Source: Pseudobdellovibrionaceae bacterium (GTDB taxonomy: Bacteria > Bdellovibrionota > Bdellovibrionia > Bdellovibrionales > Bdellovibrionaceae). Taken from it: 64,000 nucleotides of DNA. Below the pieces are notes generated by a model. It searched no databases and was not told where the DNA came from. It saw only the letters and a program-made list of their open reading frames with translations. Positions 3,600-39,933 of the stretch are shown piece by piece; the first letter of the stretch is position 1; the number at the start of each line of letters is the position of its first letter. The stretch lies in assembly GCA_947449255.1 (NCBI GenBank), contig CANFQX010000015.1, positions 1 to 64,000 of the forward strand. Direction: 5' to 3'. Position numbers and translations under genes: made by a program.

Positions 3600-3758
3600 A
3601 AACTGGCCTCTTAAATTGTTGATGGCGTTTTTTTCTTACAGCTGCCCTCGGTTTCAGATCGTCTGGCCATCCCGTGCAGCCTTCCTCAAGCGCATCGTGC
3701 GCTTGAGGGCAAAGTATGTACTCGGACTAGTCTGATCAACAATTTAAGGGGCCAGTTT
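3600..3758. repeat. Foldback element: 24-bp inverted repeats around a REP-like hairpin (copy A)
   Basis: The arms at 3600-3623 and 3735-3758 are inverted repeats of 24 bp with one mismatch, which would be a G-U pair in RNA. They enclose 111 bp. The interior (about 3629-3716) belongs to a three-copy intergenic family also present near 21620-21700 (opposite orientation) and 25078-25165. Its core hairpin is 3684-3708: an 11-bp perfect stem with a TCG loop. The element starts 22 bases after the helicase stop codon. The long arms are not found around the other two copies. It could be a MITE-like insertion, a REP element or a structured 3' end. Confidence 0.7.
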
Positions 3759-16156: not shown

Positions 16157-17584
16157 ATGATAAAACACACAGCTGCAAATACTTCGCTCAATAAAGTTCA
16201 TAATTTTTATTCTGATTCAAAAAATAAAAATACCCGCTGCAGTGGTAGAAAAAAATTTGACAGATCAGAAAGTGAAACTTCCTCGGTTATTGAAAACCTC
16301 CTAGGAGCCTTCTCATTTTTAAGTCGACGCTTACTTTTGGCACTCATTTTATTTATGGTTTTTTTTGGAAATAAAATTTGTTGGGCCAGTAATAAATCAA
16401 ATAAAAAGCAAAAAATTTATTATAAAGTGATTTGCGAGGATCCAAAAGATTGCCACCCCTCCGTCGTCGGAATACTCAGTGACGAAGAAAATGTATGCAC
16501 CGGGATCCTTGTTAAGCCCAACCTAATTGCGACAAACCTGCATTGCCTCCCCGCCAACCTACGCCACGCTGGTGCTCAGTGCAAAAATCGCATTCGTTTT
16601 AGCTTTCCAGCGACGGCTGAGTTTGCAGAAGAGTTTGCTGACTGCAGTAGCATTATTTCAATTTCCAGCGCACTCAAAGACACGCCGTTAACTCCAGATT
16701 ATGCTTTTCTTCAACTGAGTCACAATTCGAAACGAAAGCCGACAAAGATCAATACAGATGGAGTTTCAGATAATGAATTGCTCACAATCTATAAGGTGGA
16801 TCCCTTTGATGAAATCGGTATGCTTCGAAAAATAACCTGCGGGGCGGCCCAAGGATCGATGCTAAATCCTTTGTTTAAATCAGCGCAAAGCTCTGTGATA
16901 AGTCTAATCCCTTGCAATATTGTCTCCGGAAATTCTGGATCGCCCCTGCTTTCAGCTACAGATGAGGTCAAGGGATTGGTGAACTCGACGGGACTGCCTG
17001 CGGACTTGCCTTCCTCATTGATCCGATTTCAAACCGCTTTCGCTTCGAATTTTTCATGCTTGAATCTTCCTGAAATTGGAATCCTCCACAAGAATATTCA
17101 ATGTCAGAACAGCTTAGACCGAGCTTCGATTCAAAATGCCTCGGGCACCTTGGTTCGTGAAGCGGTTCATCCGCTGATGCCAAACTTTGCTAAGAATGTT
17201 GGCGACCAATTCAGGAGCATTCAGCTGCAAACAAAGGATTTTGTAAAGTGGGAAACACATCAGCAAGACATTCCCTATTCTGGAGAGGAAAAATGCGCCA
17301 TTGCTAAAGTTGCCTTCAAACCGAAGTGCATAGACACTTCCCGGGAGCGACTCCAGGAAATGGATGAATTTCAAAGCATTAAATATTCACAGTGGGGAAT
17401 AGTTCTTCACCTGGACTCTGCAGGGCGGCCAAATCCTCATTTGGCCGCTGAAGAAATAGAAAAGACCCTAAGCTTTTCGAAACAGGAGCTGGATCAAAGT
17501 CGCCAGGGGAAAACTGTTTCGATTAGGATCAATCAAGATCAGTTTAACGTGCCTTTTTGTTCTGAGATGGCGACACAGCACTAG
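16157..17584 (+). CDS. Exported trypsin-like serine protease
   Basis: This 475-residue protein shows a chymotrypsin-fold triad: His129 (ATNLHCLP), Asp181 (PDYAFLQL) and Ser260 (VSGNSGSPLL). A hydrophobic export segment at about 57-77 ends in CWA. The N-region before it (56 residues) is unusually long and the ATG has no clear ribosome binding site, so the true start may be further downstream. Residues about 300-475 form a C-terminal extension with six Cys and no recognised domain. The substrate is unknown; in a predator an exported protease may act on prey or periplasmic proteins, which is inference. The 3' end overlaps the convergent coiled-coil gene by 41 bases. Confidence 0.75.
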   Translation: MIKHTAANTSLNKVHNFYSDSKNKNTRCSGRKKFDRSESETSSVIENLLGAFSFLSRRLLLALILFMVFFGNKICWASNKSNKKQKIYYKVICEDPKDCHPSVVGILSDEENVCTGILVKPNLIATNLHCLPANLRHAGAQCKNRIRFSFPATAEFAEEFADCSSIISISSALKDTPLTPDYAFLQLSHNSKRKPTKINTDGVSDNELLTIYKVDPFDEIGMLRKITCGAAQGSMLNPLFKSAQSSVISLIPCNIVSGNSGSPLLSATDEVKGLVNSTGLPADLPSSLIRFQTAFASNFSCLNLPEIGILHKNIQCQNSLDRASIQNASGTLVREAVHPLMPNFAKNVGDQFRSIQLQTKDFVKWETHQQDIPYSGEEKCAIAKVAFKPKCIDTSRERLQEMDEFQSIKYSQWGIVLHLDSAGRPNPHLAAEEIEKTLSFSKQELDQSRQGKTVSIRINQDQFNVPFCSEMATQH

Positions 17585-18767
17585 GTGCTGTCTTGCCTTC
17601 CTGACGAATTCTGGCGATCTCTAGTTTATGCTTTTCAGTCTCTGTTTGTGCTTTGACTGTTTCCATACGAATTTTGGCTTCTTCGGAGGCTGAGCTGCTC
17701 GTCTCTAGCTGCCCGGTTATTTTGTCTCTTTCAGCTTTAATTTTTTCAGATTCATTTTGCAATCTTGCCATTTCATTCAAGGCCCTTGTTTTCGCAGTTT
17801 CATAATCAGCGATTGTTTTTTTCGCTTTGGCAATTTCAAGGGATATTTGTGCTTGTTCTTTTCTAAACTGCCCTTGGTAATTGACTAGATCCTGTCTAGC
17901 CTTCAAGGTTGATTGCTTAACAAGCTCGAATTGAGCCCGGCCTTCCAGAGCTTTCTTTTTTTCTTCTTCAATCTGAGTCGTTAGTTTTTTAATGGACTCT
18001 TGAGAAGCCAGACGTTCTTTCTCCATTTGATCTACGAGAACATTGGCTTGATCCATTTGTGCTTGAAGCCTTGCGATCTCAGCCTCCGCTTTTGATTTAT
18101 TCGCTTCGGCGCGAGCAATTTCTTGCTTAGCTTTGGCATCTTTGGCACTCGCCTCGGCCAAGGCCTTTTGTGTCATCAATTTAGCTTTGCTTAAATTTTG
18201 CTCTGCTCTTTGAGTCGATAATTTTGCGGTGTCTGCTTCATGGTTAGACTTTTGACCAGCCTCAATAGCAACGGCTGCTTCAGCTTCACTCTCCTTGGTT
18301 TTCAGAGTGAGTTCTTCAACCTTTTTTTCAGCTATTTTTTTGCGATTGAGGGCCTCTTCGCGAGCCTGTTGAGCTTTAGCTATTTTATCTTGAGCGGCTT
18401 TAATTTTACCTTGATAAATAACTTGCTCTTTTTCAGCATTTTTTTGATCGCGATCAAAAGATCCCGCTTGTGCTTTCAGTTTTGCAGCTTCTTTTTCAGC
18501 TTCAATTTGGGATCTCTTAGCGTCTTTCTCTAGTGTCCTTGCTTGGGCAATACTGGCCTGAGAATCAGCCATGGATTTTTCACGGCGCTTGCGTTCATCT
18601 TCAGCGCGACGCTTAGCTTCAACAGCTTCTGCCTTAGCTCCTTCAGCATCAGCTGCAGCTTCTTCTGCTTCGATTTGTTTTGACTCGAATTGAGCGGAGG
18701 CTTTTAAAGAAATTAAATTCATGTTTGCTAAAATAACTAAAGCCAAAATCAAAGAGCGCGACGACAT
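17544..18767 (-). CDS. Exported long coiled-coil protein
   Basis: This 407-residue protein has a signal peptide (MSSRSLILALVILANMN to about residue 26, ASA) and then an almost continuous charged coiled coil to about residue 390. The heptads are dominated by Ala, Glu, Lys and Gln (for example KRRAEDERKRREKSM and EEKKKALEGRAQFEL). No globular domain is seen. The ATG at 18767 has a strong GAAGGGG upstream; a longer reading from 18836 is less likely because it would bury the signal peptide. It is probably a periplasmic or envelope-spanning fibrous protein. The end overlaps the protease gene on the opposite strand. Confidence 0.7.
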   Translation of the reverse strand: MSSRSLILALVILANMNLISLKASAQFESKQIEAEEAAADAEGAKAEAVEAKRRAEDERKRREKSMADSQASIAQARTLEKDAKRSQIEAEKEAAKLKAQAGSFDRDQKNAEKEQVIYQGKIKAAQDKIAKAQQAREEALNRKKIAEKKVEELTLKTKESEAEAAVAIEAGQKSNHEADTAKLSTQRAEQNLSKAKLMTQKALAEASAKDAKAKQEIARAEANKSKAEAEIARLQAQMDQANVLVDQMEKERLASQESIKKLTTQIEEEKKKALEGRAQFELVKQSTLKARQDLVNYQGQFRKEQAQISLEIAKAKKTIADYETAKTRALNEMARLQNESEKIKAERDKITGQLETSSSASEEAKIRMETVKAQTETEKHKLEIARIRQEGKTAPSAVSPSQNKKAR

Positions 18768-19141
18768 ATTCTTTTCCCCTTCTTCTAAAGTACTTCCACC
18801 TTTTTGCCTCTTCAAATCCATCGATGATGGGCTCATTAAGTGGTCGATCTCTATGATAGCTGCGTTTTATTAAAAAAAGAAGTCCACCAGGAGTATTTTA
18901 GAAGGATCCTGGCCTTAAATAAAAATTTAATTAGAAGTAGCTGCAAAGAAGCTAAAGATATCAACTTCGCCGAAACTCACATTCTACAGCTGTAAAACAA
19001 AAAACGTCAGCTGTCTCCTTTTGAGACAACCAAATCATCGACAGCACGAACTGAGCATCGTGGATCTGGCAAAAAAATTGCTTACCTTTTAATTTGAGTC
19101 CATCAATATATCTAAATGATAGCAATGAGCTGAGGAATTAA
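18768..19141. other. Divergent upstream region
   Basis: About 370 bases between two genes read outwards. It should hold both promoters. AT-rich boxes such as TATATCTAAATGATAG (19109-19124) are plausible -10 sequences for the rightward gene. A short inverted repeat (GTCTC/GAGAC around 19013-19027) is present. No open reading frame is supported. Confidence 0.35.
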
Positions 19142-21604
19142 ATGCGAAACTTTTACGACAGATTGAAGCCTAAAGGTCAAAAACATTACATTTTCTCATT
19201 TTTTGTTGGCAGTTTTGTTCTCTTCTCATCTTTACCCGGGCAAGCAGTTCACCTATTACACACAGCCTCGACTTTTGCTGAATATGCAGAAGATATTCGA
19301 GTTGGTATCGAAGTTGAGTTCACGGGACTTTCGCTCAATGAAACACTGAAGATTGTTCAAGATTTTGGTGGCGGCCAAGTGACCAAAAAAGATAAGAAAA
19401 TTAAAACTACTCTCAGGGAAATTAATGCCTCTGGTATGGTCTTCAATGAGGCCATCATCCCAGAGTGGGTTATCCAGACCACAAACATGGGAGAAATCAC
19501 CATCAAAGTGGATAACAACCAAGTCGACGACAACTCTACTTTAAATCCCCAGGACACCGTCTTGGAACTGGTCACATCCCCGATCAGAAAAGCCCAGGTT
19601 TTAAAACTTCAAGAGGTGATCAGTGCCTTGAAAAATCATGGAGCAAAAGGAACTGCTGATGGTGAAGCTGTCTCGATTCAATACAACACCGAAATCAATG
19701 CGGGAAATTTAGCGAGCTACAAATGGCAAAGCCTGATTGATTTGATGAGGGTTTATCTAAACCCACGACATCGTGAACAAATTGATGCCCACCTGGAAGT
19801 TCCGGATTTTCGCAAAGATTATATTAGCCTTTATTCAAAGGGATTTCAAGCTCGCCTCTTTGATCCCCAATATAAACCAACATCCAGAGAACTTTTCGAT
19901 GATTTCTTTTACCGGCAAAGTTTAGAGCTCCTAGGACACCGTGATGCCTGGGACATCGATATTAAAACTGCACAGCAAGTCTTATTGTCACAAAAAAATC
20001 CAGTTGTGCCCCTAGTAGTAAAGCAAAATAAGCTCAGAATTAGTTCTTTGCTGGCCATGGCTTTTCCAGAAGATCCAATAACAAAAATCTATATTTCATC
20101 GGGTTGGATTAACCCGATGCCCATCGTCGAATGGCGAGAGTTTAATAATGATTTTAATGTTGTTGATCATTACCGTGAAGTTATGGGCTTAATGTATATG
20201 GCTAAAAGGTACGGAAGTTTTGATCATGACACCCTAATGAGCCAGCTTTCTGGAATTGAGGCGTCGATGATTCGTGATTTGCGCAAGCAGTATTTTACAC
20301 CAATCAGCAAGAATTCAAAGCCCACTCTTTTTCGCTATTTCATTGGCAATCCTAAAACGGTGAACCGAGAAGAATACAAAGAACTCACTAAAGCCTATCA
20401 AAAAAATCCCGTTGGCTTCTTGCCATTTTACGAGCAAGGGCTTTTTCCTTTAAGTATCCCAGGCAATAGCGTTGTGATGCATAGAAATCAATTTCACAGA
20501 TTCAATATTTTAGGGAAATTTAATCCTGGTCTGATCAATGGATTCATCATGCAATCCCTAGAAAATAAATACGTCGAAATGCGTTTTTGGAATGATTATG
20601 CCAAGGTGGGAATTCCAAAGACTTCCCTGGTTAGTGATTTACAGTTAGAGTCCTTATCGGCTCAAGACCCGAAAGAGATTCTTTCACAGGTTAAGAACGC
20701 GGTCGCAACTTGCAACAAATCCTTCCCCAAGGGATGGGTCTTAAAGGGACTTTTTGATTTGGGAACAGAAAAAGATATTCTTTCAGATAAAACAGATCTG
20801 GCTTCAGTCGTCGACACCTACTTAAAAAGTGATTTTGAAACTTATAAAGCAAGTGTCTATGCAAAGTTCAAAGAGCTCAAAACAGCGCCCGAGTTCGCAT
20901 TGACCAGTCTTAAAGAGCATAAAGGATATAAGGGCTGGAAGGCCCTCCAACTTTTATCCAATACGAAAACTGTGATCATTCAAGAACGTTATAACATCAA
21001 CAAGGAATTCAGAGTTGAGATCGTCGCAGGTCATGTCTTAGGCGGAGAGACCACCGTGGATCGCTATGGGTACACTCAAAAACAAAATGGAAAATGGGAT
21101 GCGTCCTACCAACATCCAACGCGGGATCAAATTCTAAAGGCCGAAGCCTTTGCACAAAAGTTAATAGATTCTCTTCCCCCCGAACTGCGTGGAATGACCT
21201 TTGGTTTAGATGTCGCAATCACAAATGAAGGCCAGGCAGTAATGATTGAATCCAATCCTGGGGGCAATTCAAACTTTCTTTATGAAGAAGAGCCAGCTTC
21301 AGTGAAGGCCCTGTCTAAATTTTTGAGCAAAGTTCCCGTAATGCAAAAAAGCGGACAAATCAGCCGTGGCCTAAAGCCACAAGAACAAATGCAATTCATA
21401 AAGCAGAAATTCGCCAATTGGGGAATAGAGACATCAACTCTGTATCCCGGAATGAAATTTATGAACGACAGAATCGAAGACCAAGAATTCAAGAAATTAA
21501 ATGAACTAGAAACCTCTAACCTAAATAAAAAAACTTCATCCCAACAAGACCAAAAGAACGTGCAGCAACCAAAAGTCATGACCTGCGAAAAAGTTTTTAA
21601 TTAA
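19142..21604 (+). CDS. Exported amidoligase/ATP-grasp fusion protein
   Basis: This 820-residue protein begins with a signal-like sequence (basic residues to 15, hydrophobic 18-35, PGQA). Residues about 50-280 match the amidoligase family (glutamine-synthetase-like COOH-NH2 ligases): DIRVGIEVEFTGL with Glu57 and Glu59, then VLELVTSPI. Residues about 590-770 look like an ATP-grasp domain: VIIQERYNINKEFRVEIV, TFGLDVAI and VMIESNPGGNSNF, the last being the metal and ATP site. Both domains make amide bonds using ATP in known relatives. Fusion plus an export signal is odd, because the periplasm has no ATP. The next gene encodes an exported GATase-like protein. GAGG precedes the ATG. Confidence 0.7.
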   Translation: MRNFYDRLKPKGQKHYIFSFFVGSFVLFSSLPGQAVHLLHTASTFAEYAEDIRVGIEVEFTGLSLNETLKIVQDFGGGQVTKKDKKIKTTLREINASGMVFNEAIIPEWVIQTTNMGEITIKVDNNQVDDNSTLNPQDTVLELVTSPIRKAQVLKLQEVISALKNHGAKGTADGEAVSIQYNTEINAGNLASYKWQSLIDLMRVYLNPRHREQIDAHLEVPDFRKDYISLYSKGFQARLFDPQYKPTSRELFDDFFYRQSLELLGHRDAWDIDIKTAQQVLLSQKNPVVPLVVKQNKLRISSLLAMAFPEDPITKIYISSGWINPMPIVEWREFNNDFNVVDHYREVMGLMYMAKRYGSFDHDTLMSQLSGIEASMIRDLRKQYFTPISKNSKPTLFRYFIGNPKTVNREEYKELTKAYQKNPVGFLPFYEQGLFPLSIPGNSVVMHRNQFHRFNILGKFNPGLINGFIMQSLENKYVEMRFWNDYAKVGIPKTSLVSDLQLESLSAQDPKEILSQVKNAVATCNKSFPKGWVLKGLFDLGTEKDILSDKTDLASVVDTYLKSDFETYKASVYAKFKELKTAPEFALTSLKEHKGYKGWKALQLLSNTKTVIIQERYNINKEFRVEIVAGHVLGGETTVDRYGYTQKQNGKWDASYQHPTRDQILKAEAFAQKLIDSLPPELRGMTFGLDVAITNEGQAVMIESNPGGNSNFLYEEEPASVKALSKFLSKVPVMQKSGQISRGLKPQEQMQFIKQKFANWGIETSTLYPGMKFMNDRIEDQEFKKLNELETSNLNKKTSSQQDQKNVQQPKVMTCEKVFN

Positions 21605-21619
21605 CCCGAAAAGCCCAAA

Positions 21620-21700
21620 ATACTTTGGCCTGAAGGGCACGATGCCCTTCAGGAAGGCCGCCCAGGATGGCCAGATTATCGAAACACCCGAGAGCAGCTG
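21620..21700 (-). repeat. REP-like hairpin family, copy B
   Basis: In the minus direction this stretch aligns with the 3629-3716 and 25078-25165 elements (shared blocks CAGCTGCTCT, TGGCCATCCTGGGCGGCC, TTCCTGAAG). Its hairpin at 21629-21653 has an 11-bp perfect stem that differs from copy A at two base pairs and from copy C at one, each change compensated on the other side. It starts 16 bases after the stop of the amidoligase/ATP-grasp gene. Confidence 0.75.
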
Positions 21701-21853
21701 CAAAAACCCCTCCCCTCCCCTCAACTCTTTAACCAGGGAATCAGGTAATAATAAGCTTACGATTGAGAAACCCCACCAATTAATTCTTGAAACTTAAGGA
21801 ACTTATCCGTATAGATTTCCCATTCAGAATAAATCAATTTTTCCGGAGGACTT

Positions 21854-22681
21854 GTGCCCAAATTTGGTTTTTTTAAAATCCTAGCTGCGACTCTTTTTTT
21901 AGCTTTGCAAGCCCCATTAGCCTTTAATATAAATTCACAGCCATTCATAAGAAATTTACCAAGTGAACACAAAAAAATAACCGCAAAAAAAAATAAGGCC
22001 TTAATCTATAAAGGCGAAGGAAGCTGTATAGAAGACTGCTCAGAATCAGCAGCCATGATTGCAAAAATGGCTGGGCTAGAGCCAATTTATGTTTCTCCAA
22101 CCGAGAGCAATTTAGATTTATTTGCTGATGCCGCAGTTTGGATCCAACCCGGCGGTGAGTCTCTCGTCGTGGCCGCGCAGATGTCTGTAGATCTTAAAAA
22201 CGCCATTCGAAACTTCGTCCAACAAGGTGGCGGCTATGTTGGTTTTTGCGCAGGAGCCTTCTTTGCCGATCTGTGGATACATGGAACCGAGAGCAAAGGG
22301 CTAGGCATCATTCCCGCCTATGCTATCGATTACCAAAAAGCCCGCTCCAGCGCTGAAATGCTCGATATGATTTGGAACGGAAAAAAAAGGTCCGTTTATT
22401 GGGAAGAAGGGCCTTATCTAGAATTGTTTTTTAAAGGACAACTCTTCACGCCATTTGCTTACTACCCGACGGGAGAAATAGCTTCTATCTACGGAAATTA
22501 CTATCAAGGCAGGGTCTCAGTAACAGGCACCCACCCTGAGGCCCCTCAGTACTGGAGAGACGATATCAAGGCCTCTGATCCCGATGGACTAGATTATGAC
22601 CTAGCCATCGATATGGTGCGCTGGGCGGCTGGACTCAAGAAGACCTTCGCTCCTGAACTTTACTCCTCGGAGCTTAATTAA
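21854..22681 (+). CDS. Exported glutamine-amidotransferase-like (BPL_N-type) protein
   Basis: This 275-residue protein has a signal peptide (MPKFGFFKILAATLFLALQ to about residue 23, LAF). Its class I glutamine-amidotransferase-like Rossmann core has a nucleophile elbow GGGYVGFCAGAFFAD (Cys132) preceded by VWIQPGGES. It most resembles the N-terminal domain of eukaryotic biotin-protein ligases (BPL_N) and related proteins. Family members transfer or hydrolyse amide groups. HPEAPQYW near the end supplies a candidate catalytic His-x-Glu. It starts with GTG behind GGAGG. The exported amidoligase/ATP-grasp gene lies upstream, separated by 249 bases that contain repeat copy B. Confidence 0.7.
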   Translation: MPKFGFFKILAATLFLALQAPLAFNINSQPFIRNLPSEHKKITAKKNKALIYKGEGSCIEDCSESAAMIAKMAGLEPIYVSPTESNLDLFADAAVWIQPGGESLVVAAQMSVDLKNAIRNFVQQGGGYVGFCAGAFFADLWIHGTESKGLGIIPAYAIDYQKARSSAEMLDMIWNGKKRSVYWEEGPYLELFFKGQLFTPFAYYPTGEIASIYGNYYQGRVSVTGTHPEAPQYWRDDIKASDPDGLDYDLAIDMVRWAAGLKKTFAPELYSSELN

Positions 22682-22761
22682 AATATATTTTCAATGCACC
22701 AAAGACTTGGTTCTAAAGGCTGGACTCGACAGAGTCCCTGAGTCTTTCCTAATCTAATCCT

Positions 22762-23613
22762 ATGACACCTCTATCTGCGGCAGTTTCTTTAATTATTTCC
22801 AGGCCCACTGAACTGTGGAAAACCACTTTCCTGGTGGTTCTCTTTCATGCCGCTGTTTTATTAATTTCCCCAACCAAAGCTGCCGCCGTGCCCGCAGCTT
22901 TGCATGTTGCCCTCGACCCAGGGCATGGGGGTCTTGATAAAGGCGCCATCCATAGCAGCATCAAAGAATCTGAATTGGTCTTGCTGGTCGCGAATAAAGT
23001 TAAATCGCTTTTAGAAAAAAATGAGAATGTTCGCGTAACTATGACTCGCACCGAAGATCAAAGTGTGAGTTTATCTGATCGTGTAAAAATCGCCGAAGCC
23101 CGTCATGTGGATATTTTTGTCAGCCTTCACGCCAATGCAGCTAATGATCAACGCGCTAAGGGTGTCGAGTTTTTCTTTCAAAACAATTTACCCCCCGACG
23201 AAGAAAGTCTTTATTTAGCCAATTTGGAAAATCAATCCAACACAGCCTTGAATCAAGCTCAGGAAGTTGAAAAGCAAGAACTCTCTAAAAAAGGCGATAT
23301 TTCTGCGATCATCGAAGACTTGCATCACCAAAACAAAATGATGTCTAGCCTGCGTTTTTCACAAACACTCAACCAATTCTGGCAAAGTGACGACAAATCA
23401 AACCCCGCAACGATTAAACAAGCCCCATTTTACGTCATTTCAAAAACGACAATGCCTGCCGTTTTGATCGAGGTGGGTTTTCTGACTCATCCGAAAGAAG
23501 TTAAACAACTTGCCAAGCCTGAATATCAAGATCAAATTGCTGAAAAAATAAGCAAAGCAATTTTAACTTTCAAAGAAAAGATGGACAAGCCGGAACTCAG
23601 GACATTAAATTAG
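22762..23613 (+). CDS. N-acetylmuramoyl-L-alanine amidase (AmiC type)
   Basis: This 283-residue zinc enzyme cuts the bond between MurNAc and the peptide stem of peptidoglycan. Amidase_3 signatures are present: LDPGHGGLDKGA (zinc His), KESEL (zinc Glu), SLHANA (zinc His) and LIEVGFLTHP (catalytic Glu). A signal-like hydrophobic segment lies at about 22-38, ending AAA. The ATG has only a weak ribosome binding site. The rph gene follows 26 bases later, so this gene probably heads the amidase-rph-rdgB operon. It may serve cell division or, in a predator, prey wall processing. Confidence 0.88.
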   Translation: MTPLSAAVSLIISRPTELWKTTFLVVLFHAAVLLISPTKAAAVPAALHVALDPGHGGLDKGAIHSSIKESELVLLVANKVKSLLEKNENVRVTMTRTEDQSVSLSDRVKIAEARHVDIFVSLHANAANDQRAKGVEFFFQNNLPPDEESLYLANLENQSNTALNQAQEVEKQELSKKGDISAIIEDLHHQNKMMSSLRFSQTLNQFWQSDDKSNPATIKQAPFYVISKTTMPAVLIEVGFLTHPKEVKQLAKPEYQDQIAEKISKAILTFKEKMDKPELRTLN

Positions 23614-24984: not shown

Positions 24985-25346
24985 GTTTTTTTGCTGATTG
25001 GGTATTGGTTTGGGTCTGGGTGTTCATTGTCAGACCAACTGCTAATGACTTTTGGCTTTAATTGTTTGTTGTTGTTTTCTTTTTTATTCAGCTGCTCTGG
25101 GTTTAACATCTTGTGGCCATCCTGAGCGGCCTTCCTGAAGCGCATCGTGCGCTTCAGGGCGAAGTTTGGTTTTTTTGGCACTTTTTTATTTGTTTTAAAA
25201 TAGGCTTTTACTTTCTTTTTTTGATTGAATTTTCATGTTTAATTTTGCTTTGGTTTTTTTTGCTTTTATTTTCAATTCTGAACTTTACTCTTGAGCTTTG
25301 CTTTGCTAACTTCCTGCAAACGCACTTTTAACTCAGGAGACTACGA
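24985..25346. other. Intergenic region between rdgB and prs
   Basis: A T-rich 362-base stretch containing repeat copy C at about 25078-25165. The part after it (25170-25320) is strongly T-rich on the plus strand and shows no credible coding frame. The prs promoter is presumably near its right end. Confidence 0.5.
25078..25165 (+). repeat. REP-like hairpin family, copy C
   Basis: Same orientation as copy A (3629-3716), with shared blocks CAGCTGC, TGGCCATCC, GCGGCCTTCCT and AAGCGCATCGTGCGCTT. The hairpin at 25134-25158 has an 11-bp perfect stem and TCG loop. It lies about 95 bases after rdgB. Confidence 0.75.
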
Positions 25347-38127: not shown

Positions 38128-38322
38128 GAAGAGCCCTCTCGCCTCTCGAGAGATAAAAAACCCTCAGAAAATCTCATTTTGAGGCGTTCTCCTTTTTTAC
38201 AGGAGAGTGACAAAATTTGAGATTTGCACTTTCGCCAAGAAGATAGGCCCTGTGAATCTGCGACTTTACCTAAGACCCTCAACCGGCACAAGCCTTGCTG
38301 GATCTTTTATAAGGGAGAAAAA

Positions 38323-39933
38323 ATGCAAATCTCTATTTATATAAAAAAAACCTGGCTTCACCTGTTATTGATAGGGGCATTAATAATTCCTGCCCTCGAT
38401 GTCCATGCTGGGCTATGGAACCCCTTCGCGAAAAAAGCTCCCGATACTCCAATCACTCAACAGGGTGCCTTAAGTCACGTCGAAAATATCTTCATTAAAA
38501 AAGTTCTTGCAGATATTAATTCAAAGACAACGACTTATTCTAGCTACTCCTTGGCAAAACGTAAGGTGTCTGGAGCTGACGCTGAAAAGCACAGCCTTGT
38601 TCTAACCCCCACACACACAGAAATCATTCCTGAATATTCTGAAGAAGGATTAAAATTTAAACTGATCTATGATGAAATCGCTCTAAAAAACCCTAAATAT
38701 ATTGTCAAAGAATTGGCCCTCATCAATGCGATATGCACAAGTCACGGCGTAGATACCTCATTCACCTCTGATTTTTATGGAGCATTAGACTATAAAACTA
38801 AAAAGTCCATTGAATCACCCCATTCTGTTGCAGAATTAATAGCCAATGCAAATGCAGGCAGCCCTACAGCAAGAGCTCGATGGGTCGAACTGCAGGCACG
38901 AATATTAAAAAATTTAAGTCTAAGTCCACCCATGACTCAAAACCTGCAATTGCCAGAAAATACAATTGCAGAAATCAGCCAAGAGCTTGAATCTGAGCTT
39001 TTCGATCTTGAAGCCAAGGCCCTTCAATTTTCGCGCAAACAAAAAAAAATGCTCACTCAGTGGAAAACAGAATCAGGTCAATTGGATCAACTGGAAGCCC
39101 TACCAGAAAAATTAAATGACTTGATACTAAATAATGATCGCCAAGGCGTCAGACAAATGCTTGAGGCTTACCTTCCCTGGGCCGTCATGGAACCAGCTGA
39201 AATCAATGCATGGAAAATATGGCTTGAAGCCATCGAACATCCCAATCGTGAAAAGACCACGGTCGCCTTTCGGGGAGTGAAATACGACAACGATAAAATT
39301 CAGCGCCGAAAAACCAATGATGGCCGCGAGATTTTTGGTTTCATGTCGACCATTTTAACAAAAAACCAAGGCAGCTATACTCGTCGTCTGCGTTCTTTAA
39401 CGACCAATCGTGAGAAAAATGGAGATCATAGCTTCAACAATGAAAACTCTAATATTTTGTCCGTCAAAATGGCTGATCAGATGGAGGCCCACGCGGTATC
39501 TCCAGAGGGGTCGAATTTTCTTTCATTCACCTTTGATCCAGAGGTCGCCAGGTCCTTTATGGGTTTAAATCGCAATTCACTTCCCTTTGGAGGATTACTA
39601 GCAGTCAAGATTGATTCGCGACGTATGATTCCAAATATCGCCTCTATGTATAACCATGAAGTTGAAATTTTAGCACCGCTGATCGTCTTTCCGGATGAAG
39701 TCATAGCCTACAAAGAAGGTTCATTCACGGAAGACTACACTTTCAGACAATATGTTTCCGAAGTTTCAAGTCAAAGTGGAATTGATTTTATTCCGTGGTT
39801 AAAGTCACATGGAAGTTCAGGAATCCAAGATAAAGAAATGATAAATCGCTACAGAATTCAAGGTTATGATTTTATGAAGTCCATCATCGCAACGGATAAA
39901 AACAAAAGAACTTGCTCAAGAGTATTTAATTAA
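38323..39933 (+). CDS. Exported protein with predicted ADP-ribosyltransferase domain
   Basis: This 536-residue protein has a signal peptide (MQISIYIKKTWLHLLLIGAL to about 29, VHA). Residues about 310-470 carry the three parts of R-S-E-class mono-ADP-ribosyltransferases in order: Arg317 in VAFRGVKYD, S401-F-T403 in FLSFTFDPEVARSFM (the S-T-S motif with F in the middle) and E446-V-E448 in YNHEVEIL. The usual role is transfer of ADP-ribose from NAD to a target protein. The middle residue of S-T-S is non-standard. Residues 30-300 are helical and unknown. GGGAG precedes ATG 38323. Downstream, on the other strand, is a papain-like protease. Confidence 0.65.
   Translation: MQISIYIKKTWLHLLLIGALIIPALDVHAGLWNPFAKKAPDTPITQQGALSHVENIFIKKVLADINSKTTTYSSYSLAKRKVSGADAEKHSLVLTPTHTEIIPEYSEEGLKFKLIYDEIALKNPKYIVKELALINAICTSHGVDTSFTSDFYGALDYKTKKSIESPHSVAELIANANAGSPTARARWVELQARILKNLSLSPPMTQNLQLPENTIAEISQELESELFDLEAKALQFSRKQKKMLTQWKTESGQLDQLEALPEKLNDLILNNDRQGVRQMLEAYLPWAVMEPAEINAWKIWLEAIEHPNREKTTVAFRGVKYDNDKIQRRKTNDGREIFGFMSTILTKNQGSYTRRLRSLTTNREKNGDHSFNNENSNILSVKMADQMEAHAVSPEGSNFLSFTFDPEVARSFMGLNRNSLPFGGLLAVKIDSRRMIPNIASMYNHEVEILAPLIVFPDEVIAYKEGSFTEDYTFRQYVSEVSSQSGIDFIPWLKSHGSSGIQDKEMINRYRIQGYDFMKSIIATDKNKRTCSRVFN

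Follow-up and report, generated by a model that had tools for sequence, protein, structure and literature searches.

The window, i.e., the whole stretch of 64,000 nucleotides analyzed here, carries two neighboring genes that may constitute an accessory cassette exporting a full set of enzymes for making and processing amide bonds, perhaps with the prey compartment as the site of action; the chances of this reading are judged to be about even. The first gene encodes a fusion of a glutamine synthetase–fold amidoligase with an ATP-grasp ligase of the R2K clade, and the second a class I glutamine amidotransferase (GATase)-like protein of the BPL_N type.

ATP-dependent ligases are generally taken to be cytoplasmic, and to our knowledge no free ATP is to be expected in the periplasm; cells normally keep their ATP in the cytoplasm. 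The kinds of domain are already known, and what appears to be new is the exported combination: no ATP-dependent module of amidoligase, ATP-grasp, and GATase was found described as exported in the literature. A conserved, apparently catalytically intact exported module would imply either that these bacteria have ATP available extracellularly or that the site of action lies within another cell. Either outcome would bear on how Bdellovibrio-type predators, many of whose exported proteins still have no assigned function, exploit and remodel their prey. The features are compiled in Table 1.

Table 1. Coordinates of the cassette, its flanking genes, and tag-bearing proteins
Feature	Position	Strand	Basis or remark
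Coiled-coil gene flanking the slot	17544-18836	-	
Accessory slot between coiled-coil and amidase genes, holding only the two-gene cassette	18837..22761	.	24-genome comparison
Amidoligase/R2K ATP-grasp fusion gene, putatively exported	19142..21604	+	ATG start, 820 aa
Putative signal peptide of fusion, aa 1-35, cleavage possibly after GQA	19142..19246	+	Hydropathy, feature kept in relatives
Glutamine synthetase–fold amidoligase domain of fusion	19292..20311 (Pfam match 19292-19909)	+	Pfam, fold, invariant residues
R2K-clade ATP-grasp ligase domain of fusion (aa 392-739)	20315..21358	+	Pfam, fold, invariant residues
C-terminal CEKVFN tail of fusion	21584..21601	+	Similar tails on other exported proteins of the group
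Intergenic REP-like palindromic repeat (copy B)	21617..21706	.	Repeat comparison
Class I GATase-like protein (BPL_N), putatively exported	21854..22681	+	GTG start, 275 aa
Putative signal peptide of GATase, aa 1-23	21854..21922	+	Hydropathy
GATase triad	C132 = 22247-22249, H227 = 22532-22534, E229 = 22538-22540	+	
Wall amidase gene flanking the slot	22762-23613	+	
Tag-bearing exported proteins	Window 21584-21601; end of 38224-39933; L040:1730-4351; L041:2417-5296; L175:2906-5041; L031		

Domains and active sites of the two proteins

A preliminary description of this DNA had proposed a single polypeptide with an amidoligase domain, an ATP-grasp domain, and an export signal. Its coordinates proved exact, and profile matches, fold matches, and a signal-like N terminus agree with it; Pfam searches returned all three domains predicted for the pair (Amidoligase_2, ATP-grasp, and BPL_N). 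Residues 51–256 of the fusion match Amidoligase_2 with E=4e-16 (60 bits vs. a cut-off of 22; 62.8 bits in a search of the own genome). Residues 572–719 match the R2K_2 and R2K_3 ATP-grasp families with E about 3e-6, barely over both cut-offs (27.8 vs. 26.2 and 28.0 vs. 26.3, respectively). Folds were assigned by comparing AlphaFold models with solved structures, the amidoligase part being modeled mostly at a pLDDT of 80–90. Herein, residues 27–359 are predicted to adopt the glutamine synthetase fold (4bax, Z 11.3, rmsd 3.7, 194 aligned) and residues 392–739 that of an ATP-grasp carboxylate-amine ligase (DdlA 3i12, Z 12.8, rmsd 4.5, 263 aligned). A sequence search of the PDB with the fusion profile gave no match.

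The amidoligase residues E57, E59, E142, N182, E184, and R332 are shared without exception by the exported and the cytoplasmic members (13 sequences). In the ATP-grasp half, residues were assigned by motif with the R2K definitions of PMC4431377: K535, E622/R624 (ExR), D690, and E703/N705 (ExN) are invariant, distant exported ATP-grasp proteins included, and a second lysine in the RAGNYA region, K550, is present in 8/9 sequences. The fusion probably bears two independent ATP-dependent ligase active sites, one of an amidoligase of the glutamine synthetase type and one of an R2K ATP-grasp peptide ligase. The strand-2 lysine, the second lysine, ExR, and ExN are common to the fusion and the R2K-clade ligases, i.e., CDC123 and its relatives, for which a ligation of the peptide type and a part in conflict have been proposed, with T6SS-linked versions and Legionella effectors among them (PMC4431377). 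Unlike these, the ATP-grasp half is fused to an amidoligase, follows a Sec-type signal, and has ExN where R2K.3 has ExGD.

The neighboring gene had been described as an exported class I GATase/BPL_N-like protein with Cys132 in place, which holds: it matches BPL_N with E=1.2e-12, and its triad C132/H227/E229 is intact and invariant in relatives. The best PDB matches of its AlphaFold model are PdxT-type class I glutaminases (TM 0.71 by target). A second exported BPL_N GATase of the same genome (L040:6221-7003; C1, about 72 kb) has no ligase neighbors and lies close to the window copy in the tree.

Both genes are preceded by a Shine-Dalgarno–like sequence. The repeat noted earlier between them as copy B is real, a REP-like palindrome of ~90 nt that recurs at 14 other places with 75–89% identity in about 0.87 Mb examined. 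Copies also lie in the window at 25083-25165 and 3633-3717, with a dozen others in sampled contigs of the genome.

Export-type N termini and kinship to cytoplasmic amidoligases

The N termini of the fusion and the GATase combine a basic n-region with an 11-residue hydropathy of 2.35 and 2.15, respectively, compared with 0.8–1.2 for the neighboring cytosolic RNase PH, RdgB, and Prs. This hydrophobicity is kept in relatives although the letters are not conserved there. Nearly all complete fusions, stand-alone amidoligases, and GATases in Bdellovibrionota have a signal-like start, in some followed by a lipobox-like cysteine. Hydropathy and conservation together suggest that both proteins are exported, and "exported" is used throughout in this predicted sense. 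An alternative start that removes the signal of the fusion was rejected: the only ATG, GTG, or TTG after the start and before residue 80 is the TTG at residue 8, which leaves no ordinary alternative start that would bypass the h-region.

Amidoligase_2 is present in 56/291 Bdellovibrionota genomes. The canonical members (n=8, E below 1e-44) are short, begin at or near the domain, and lack a signal peptide in every case (0/8); in all seven loci checked, they are followed by a cytoplasmic Peptidase_C26 GATase. By contrast, the clade of the window protein has export-type N termini in 11/11 members, with a support of 97/94 for the exported clade. The contrast drawn earlier with cytoplasmic amidoligase systems is therefore borne out by the relatives and by a signal-less cytoplasmic group within the phylum, and the window pair and its clade appear, judged by signal-type N termini, to depart from the cytoplasmic location of known amidoligase/GATase systems. 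Another, more distant group of signal-bearing amidoligases is present in the phylum. A second Amidoligase_2 protein of the own genome is exported and highly divergent (959 aa, L041:2417-5296; C1, about 226 kb), and comparable long forms (900–1100 aa), all with weak scores, are found throughout the phylum.

The cytoplasmic Amidoligase_2 (PF12224)/Peptidase_C26 pair resembles the window pair in that a glutamine synthetase–fold amidoligase with the same invariant residues adjoins a class I GATase-like amidohydrolase. It differs in lacking an ATP-grasp domain and in its C26-type GATase, whereas in the window the amidoligase is exported, fused to an ATP-grasp, and accompanied by a BPL_N GATase. Because the canonical amidoligases are so regularly accompanied by Peptidase_C26 (7/7), the association of an amidoligase with a class I GATase appears to be a repeated partnership; since they are also signal-less, the exported system may be regarded as a relocated and remodeled counterpart of this known ligase/amidohydrolase couple.

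Two further systems are comparable in part. Genes for an amidoligase, a GATase, and an ATP-grasp protein also lie close together in the LUZ24-like phage UFV-P2, but, in the available part of that source (PMC3890496), phage sets of this kind consist of separate genes with a class II (Gn_AT_II) GATase and show no sign of export. RloA/RloB/RloC of Pseudomonas likewise bring together an ATP-grasp protein and exported amide-cleaving enzymes; unlike in the window system, the ATP-grasp protein is cytoplasmic and export is limited to the proteases (PMC12239564). A phage origin of the fusion was rejected: it has no match in 50,697 phage records and none in PHROGs, where the GATase gave a single weak match, and one weak plasmid match covers the amidoligase half only.

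Recurrence of the pair and its site in the genus

A search for the same pair in other Bdellovibrionota recovered it. Among 11 distinct loci with readable flanks that contain the ATP-grasp half of the fusion, scattered over the phylum, eight have an exported GATase as the next gene, on the same strand in six (window, L024, L025, L027, L036, and L097) and convergent in two (L032 and L049); L026, L028, and L029 have the ATP-grasp half without a neighboring GATase. Same-strand gaps in the relatives are 31–71 nt or the genes overlap, compared with 249 nt, including the REP-like repeat, in the window. The preliminary description doubted a shared transcript because of the repeat; against this doubt stand the close spacing in several relatives and the apparent joint insertion in the window, where cotranscription is at most a possibility. 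Two observations named in advance as counting against the proposal, missing profile matches or relatives devoid of both signals and GATase neighbor, were looked for; the profiles matched, and the relatives keep signals and mostly the GATase.

Pairing by chance is not a satisfactory explanation because adjacency is found in 8/11 loci while the exported GATase family occurs in only 63/291 genomes; at a generous 1% adjacency per locus, the chance of 7/10 adjacent is ~1e-12. The linked GATases cluster in the tree, with three label changes compared with a shuffled mean of 6.5 (0/500 shuffles so low), and the hypothesis that they form one clade is not rejected (p-AU 0.275), a value with which a single and a repeated origin of the pairing are both compatible.

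The exported ligase set is modular, as judged from gene content. In L031, the exported amidoligase is a protein of its own, alongside a second exported ATP-grasp family; L028 combines the fusion with this second ATP-grasp, and L026 joins both ATP-grasps and the amidoligase in a single lipoprotein-like chain. In L082, the place between an exported GATase and an exported amidoligase is taken by an exported protein resembling IucA/IucC, with a score below the cut-off. Within the second ATP-grasp family, a signal is missing from some members (L167 and L169). In a further locus (L092:6533-8510, G076), an exported Peptidase_S58 and a carbon-nitrogen hydrolase adjoin an exported GATase.

Within the genus, the 3.9-kb cassette is exceptional: the fusion is found in 1/24 genomes and a stand-alone amidoligase in one more. 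A relative in split form is present in G157, which belongs to the genus. The wall amidase gene is present in 24/24 and the coiled-coil gene in 23/24 genomes, usually 0.3–1.2 kb apart. The pair therefore behaves like a single insertion at a site of changing content, and the amidase is a bystander. A functional tie to the wall amidase at 22762, raised in the preliminary description, was accordingly rejected: the amidase is universal in the genus, the coiled-coil gene lies close by it without the cassette, and no amidase counterpart was found at the first 19 related loci scanned. The missing GATase at 3/11 loci and the single occurrence in the genus argue against a core predation function of the cassette. 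In a few other genomes (L254-L258), the slot has other cargo, either a chemotaxis receptor or large signal-bearing proteins with a SYQGRILK-type start. As a lead only, the latter resemble mosaic adhesive trimer fibers, proteins in which the signal peptide is followed by a conserved domain common to them all (PMC10769870).

Proposed function, alternatives, and a terminal tag

In the proposed mechanism, the two ligase sites of the fusion would spend ATP and probably make successive amide bonds on a peptide, a protein, or a wall fragment. The GATase, acting jointly with the fusion, could supply the ligase with ammonia taken from glutamine or from a side-chain amide, or it could cut the amide bond again, as presumed for Peptidase_C26 beside the cytoplasmic amidoligases. 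The most speculative step is the placement of this activity in the prey compartment, on the assumption that glutamine and ATP leak or are reached there during predation; it is proposed because the predator's own periplasm would leave the enzymes without ATP. The relatives belong to Bdellovibrio, Bdellovibrionales, and Bacteriovoracaceae, and for a bacterium of this group prey would be the most plausible ATP source. A Tlc ATP/ADP transporter gave no match in the genome, nor in the control genomes. A literature search joining Bdellovibrio with intact nucleotides or nucleoside triphosphates found nothing, and access of Bdellovibrio to the cytoplasmic contents of prey is an open question according to a review (PMC10225642). 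A broader version, tentative and less probable than the cassette reading, is that predators deploy exported ATP-consuming ligases as effectors that build bonds inside prey with prey ATP and glutamine, drawing on a modular kit of amidoligase, two ATP-grasp families, IucA/IucC-like protein, and GATase, some members of which would bear a terminal CxxVF-type tag, maybe for sorting.

Rather unlikely, although the strongest of the alternatives, is that the exported enzymes act on the envelope of the producing cell itself or on peptides outside it, with ATP from lysed neighbors or another extracytoplasmic phosphate donor. Some distant relatives (G078, G059, G270, and G176) are lipoprotein-like, which fits envelope anchoring, and the group exports further amide enzymes such as the Peptidase_S58 and CN_hydrolase of L092; however, no energy source is known for a standing ATP-dependent process in the own periplasm, and the patchy, cassette-like distribution better suits an interaction with other organisms.

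Slightly less likely still, the module might handle prey-derived glutamine, ammonia, or peptides in the prey remnant for nitrogen assimilation or detoxification, with no target being modified. The glutamine synthetase fold, the glutaminase-type GATase, and the use of prey material as food are consistent with such a salvage role, as is the uptake of intact nucleotides by Bdellovibrio, which appears as a reference (Ruby 1985) in PMC7529429. Against it, a fusion of two ligase domains indicates product building, and taking the material up for processing by cytoplasmic enzymes would be the simpler route.

It is improbable that the ligase halves are exported as noncatalytic binding modules, the GATase alone being active as an amidase or a peptidase. 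The ATP paradox would then vanish, the R2K scores are modest, and many positions of the canonical amidoligases are changed in the exported members; yet the K, ExR, and ExN residues of the ATP-grasp and the E/N/R residues of the amidoligase stay invariant down to about 20–30% identity, which would be unexpected without catalysis. Very improbable is an ordinary cytoplasmic amidoligase system with nonfunctional N-terminal signals: the signals are called from hydropathy and conservation, and L167 and L169 are signal-less, but all complete fusion relatives and nearly all GATases keep a hydrophobic N terminus despite its unconserved sequence, and in the canonical relatives from the cytoplasm the protein begins with the domain or close to it.

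The C terminus of the fusion is CEKVFN; tails of the Cxx[VIL]F type, or copies early in the mature N terminus, recur in exported proteins of the group. In a sample of relatives and roughly a quarter of the genome, biased because several matches come from the families studied here, 362 signal-bearing proteins contained the motif seven times near the presumed cleavage site (at a distance of up to about 20 aa) and five times at the C terminus, compared with 0–2 times per similar-sized segment elsewhere; among cytoplasmic-type proteins, it was C-terminal in 2/452. The tag, which is strongly biased in position and sits on exported proteins that are otherwise unrelated, is possibly a sorting or processing signal. 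An exported 569-aa protein encoded in the window (38224-39933, plus strand) ends in CSRVFN; it gave no Pfam or PDB match, and its FRG/SFTFD/EVE motifs recall ADP-ribosyltransferases as a lead only. A separate 0.4-Mb sample of another genome (G157) contributed one more case, an unrelated exported protein of 711 aa.
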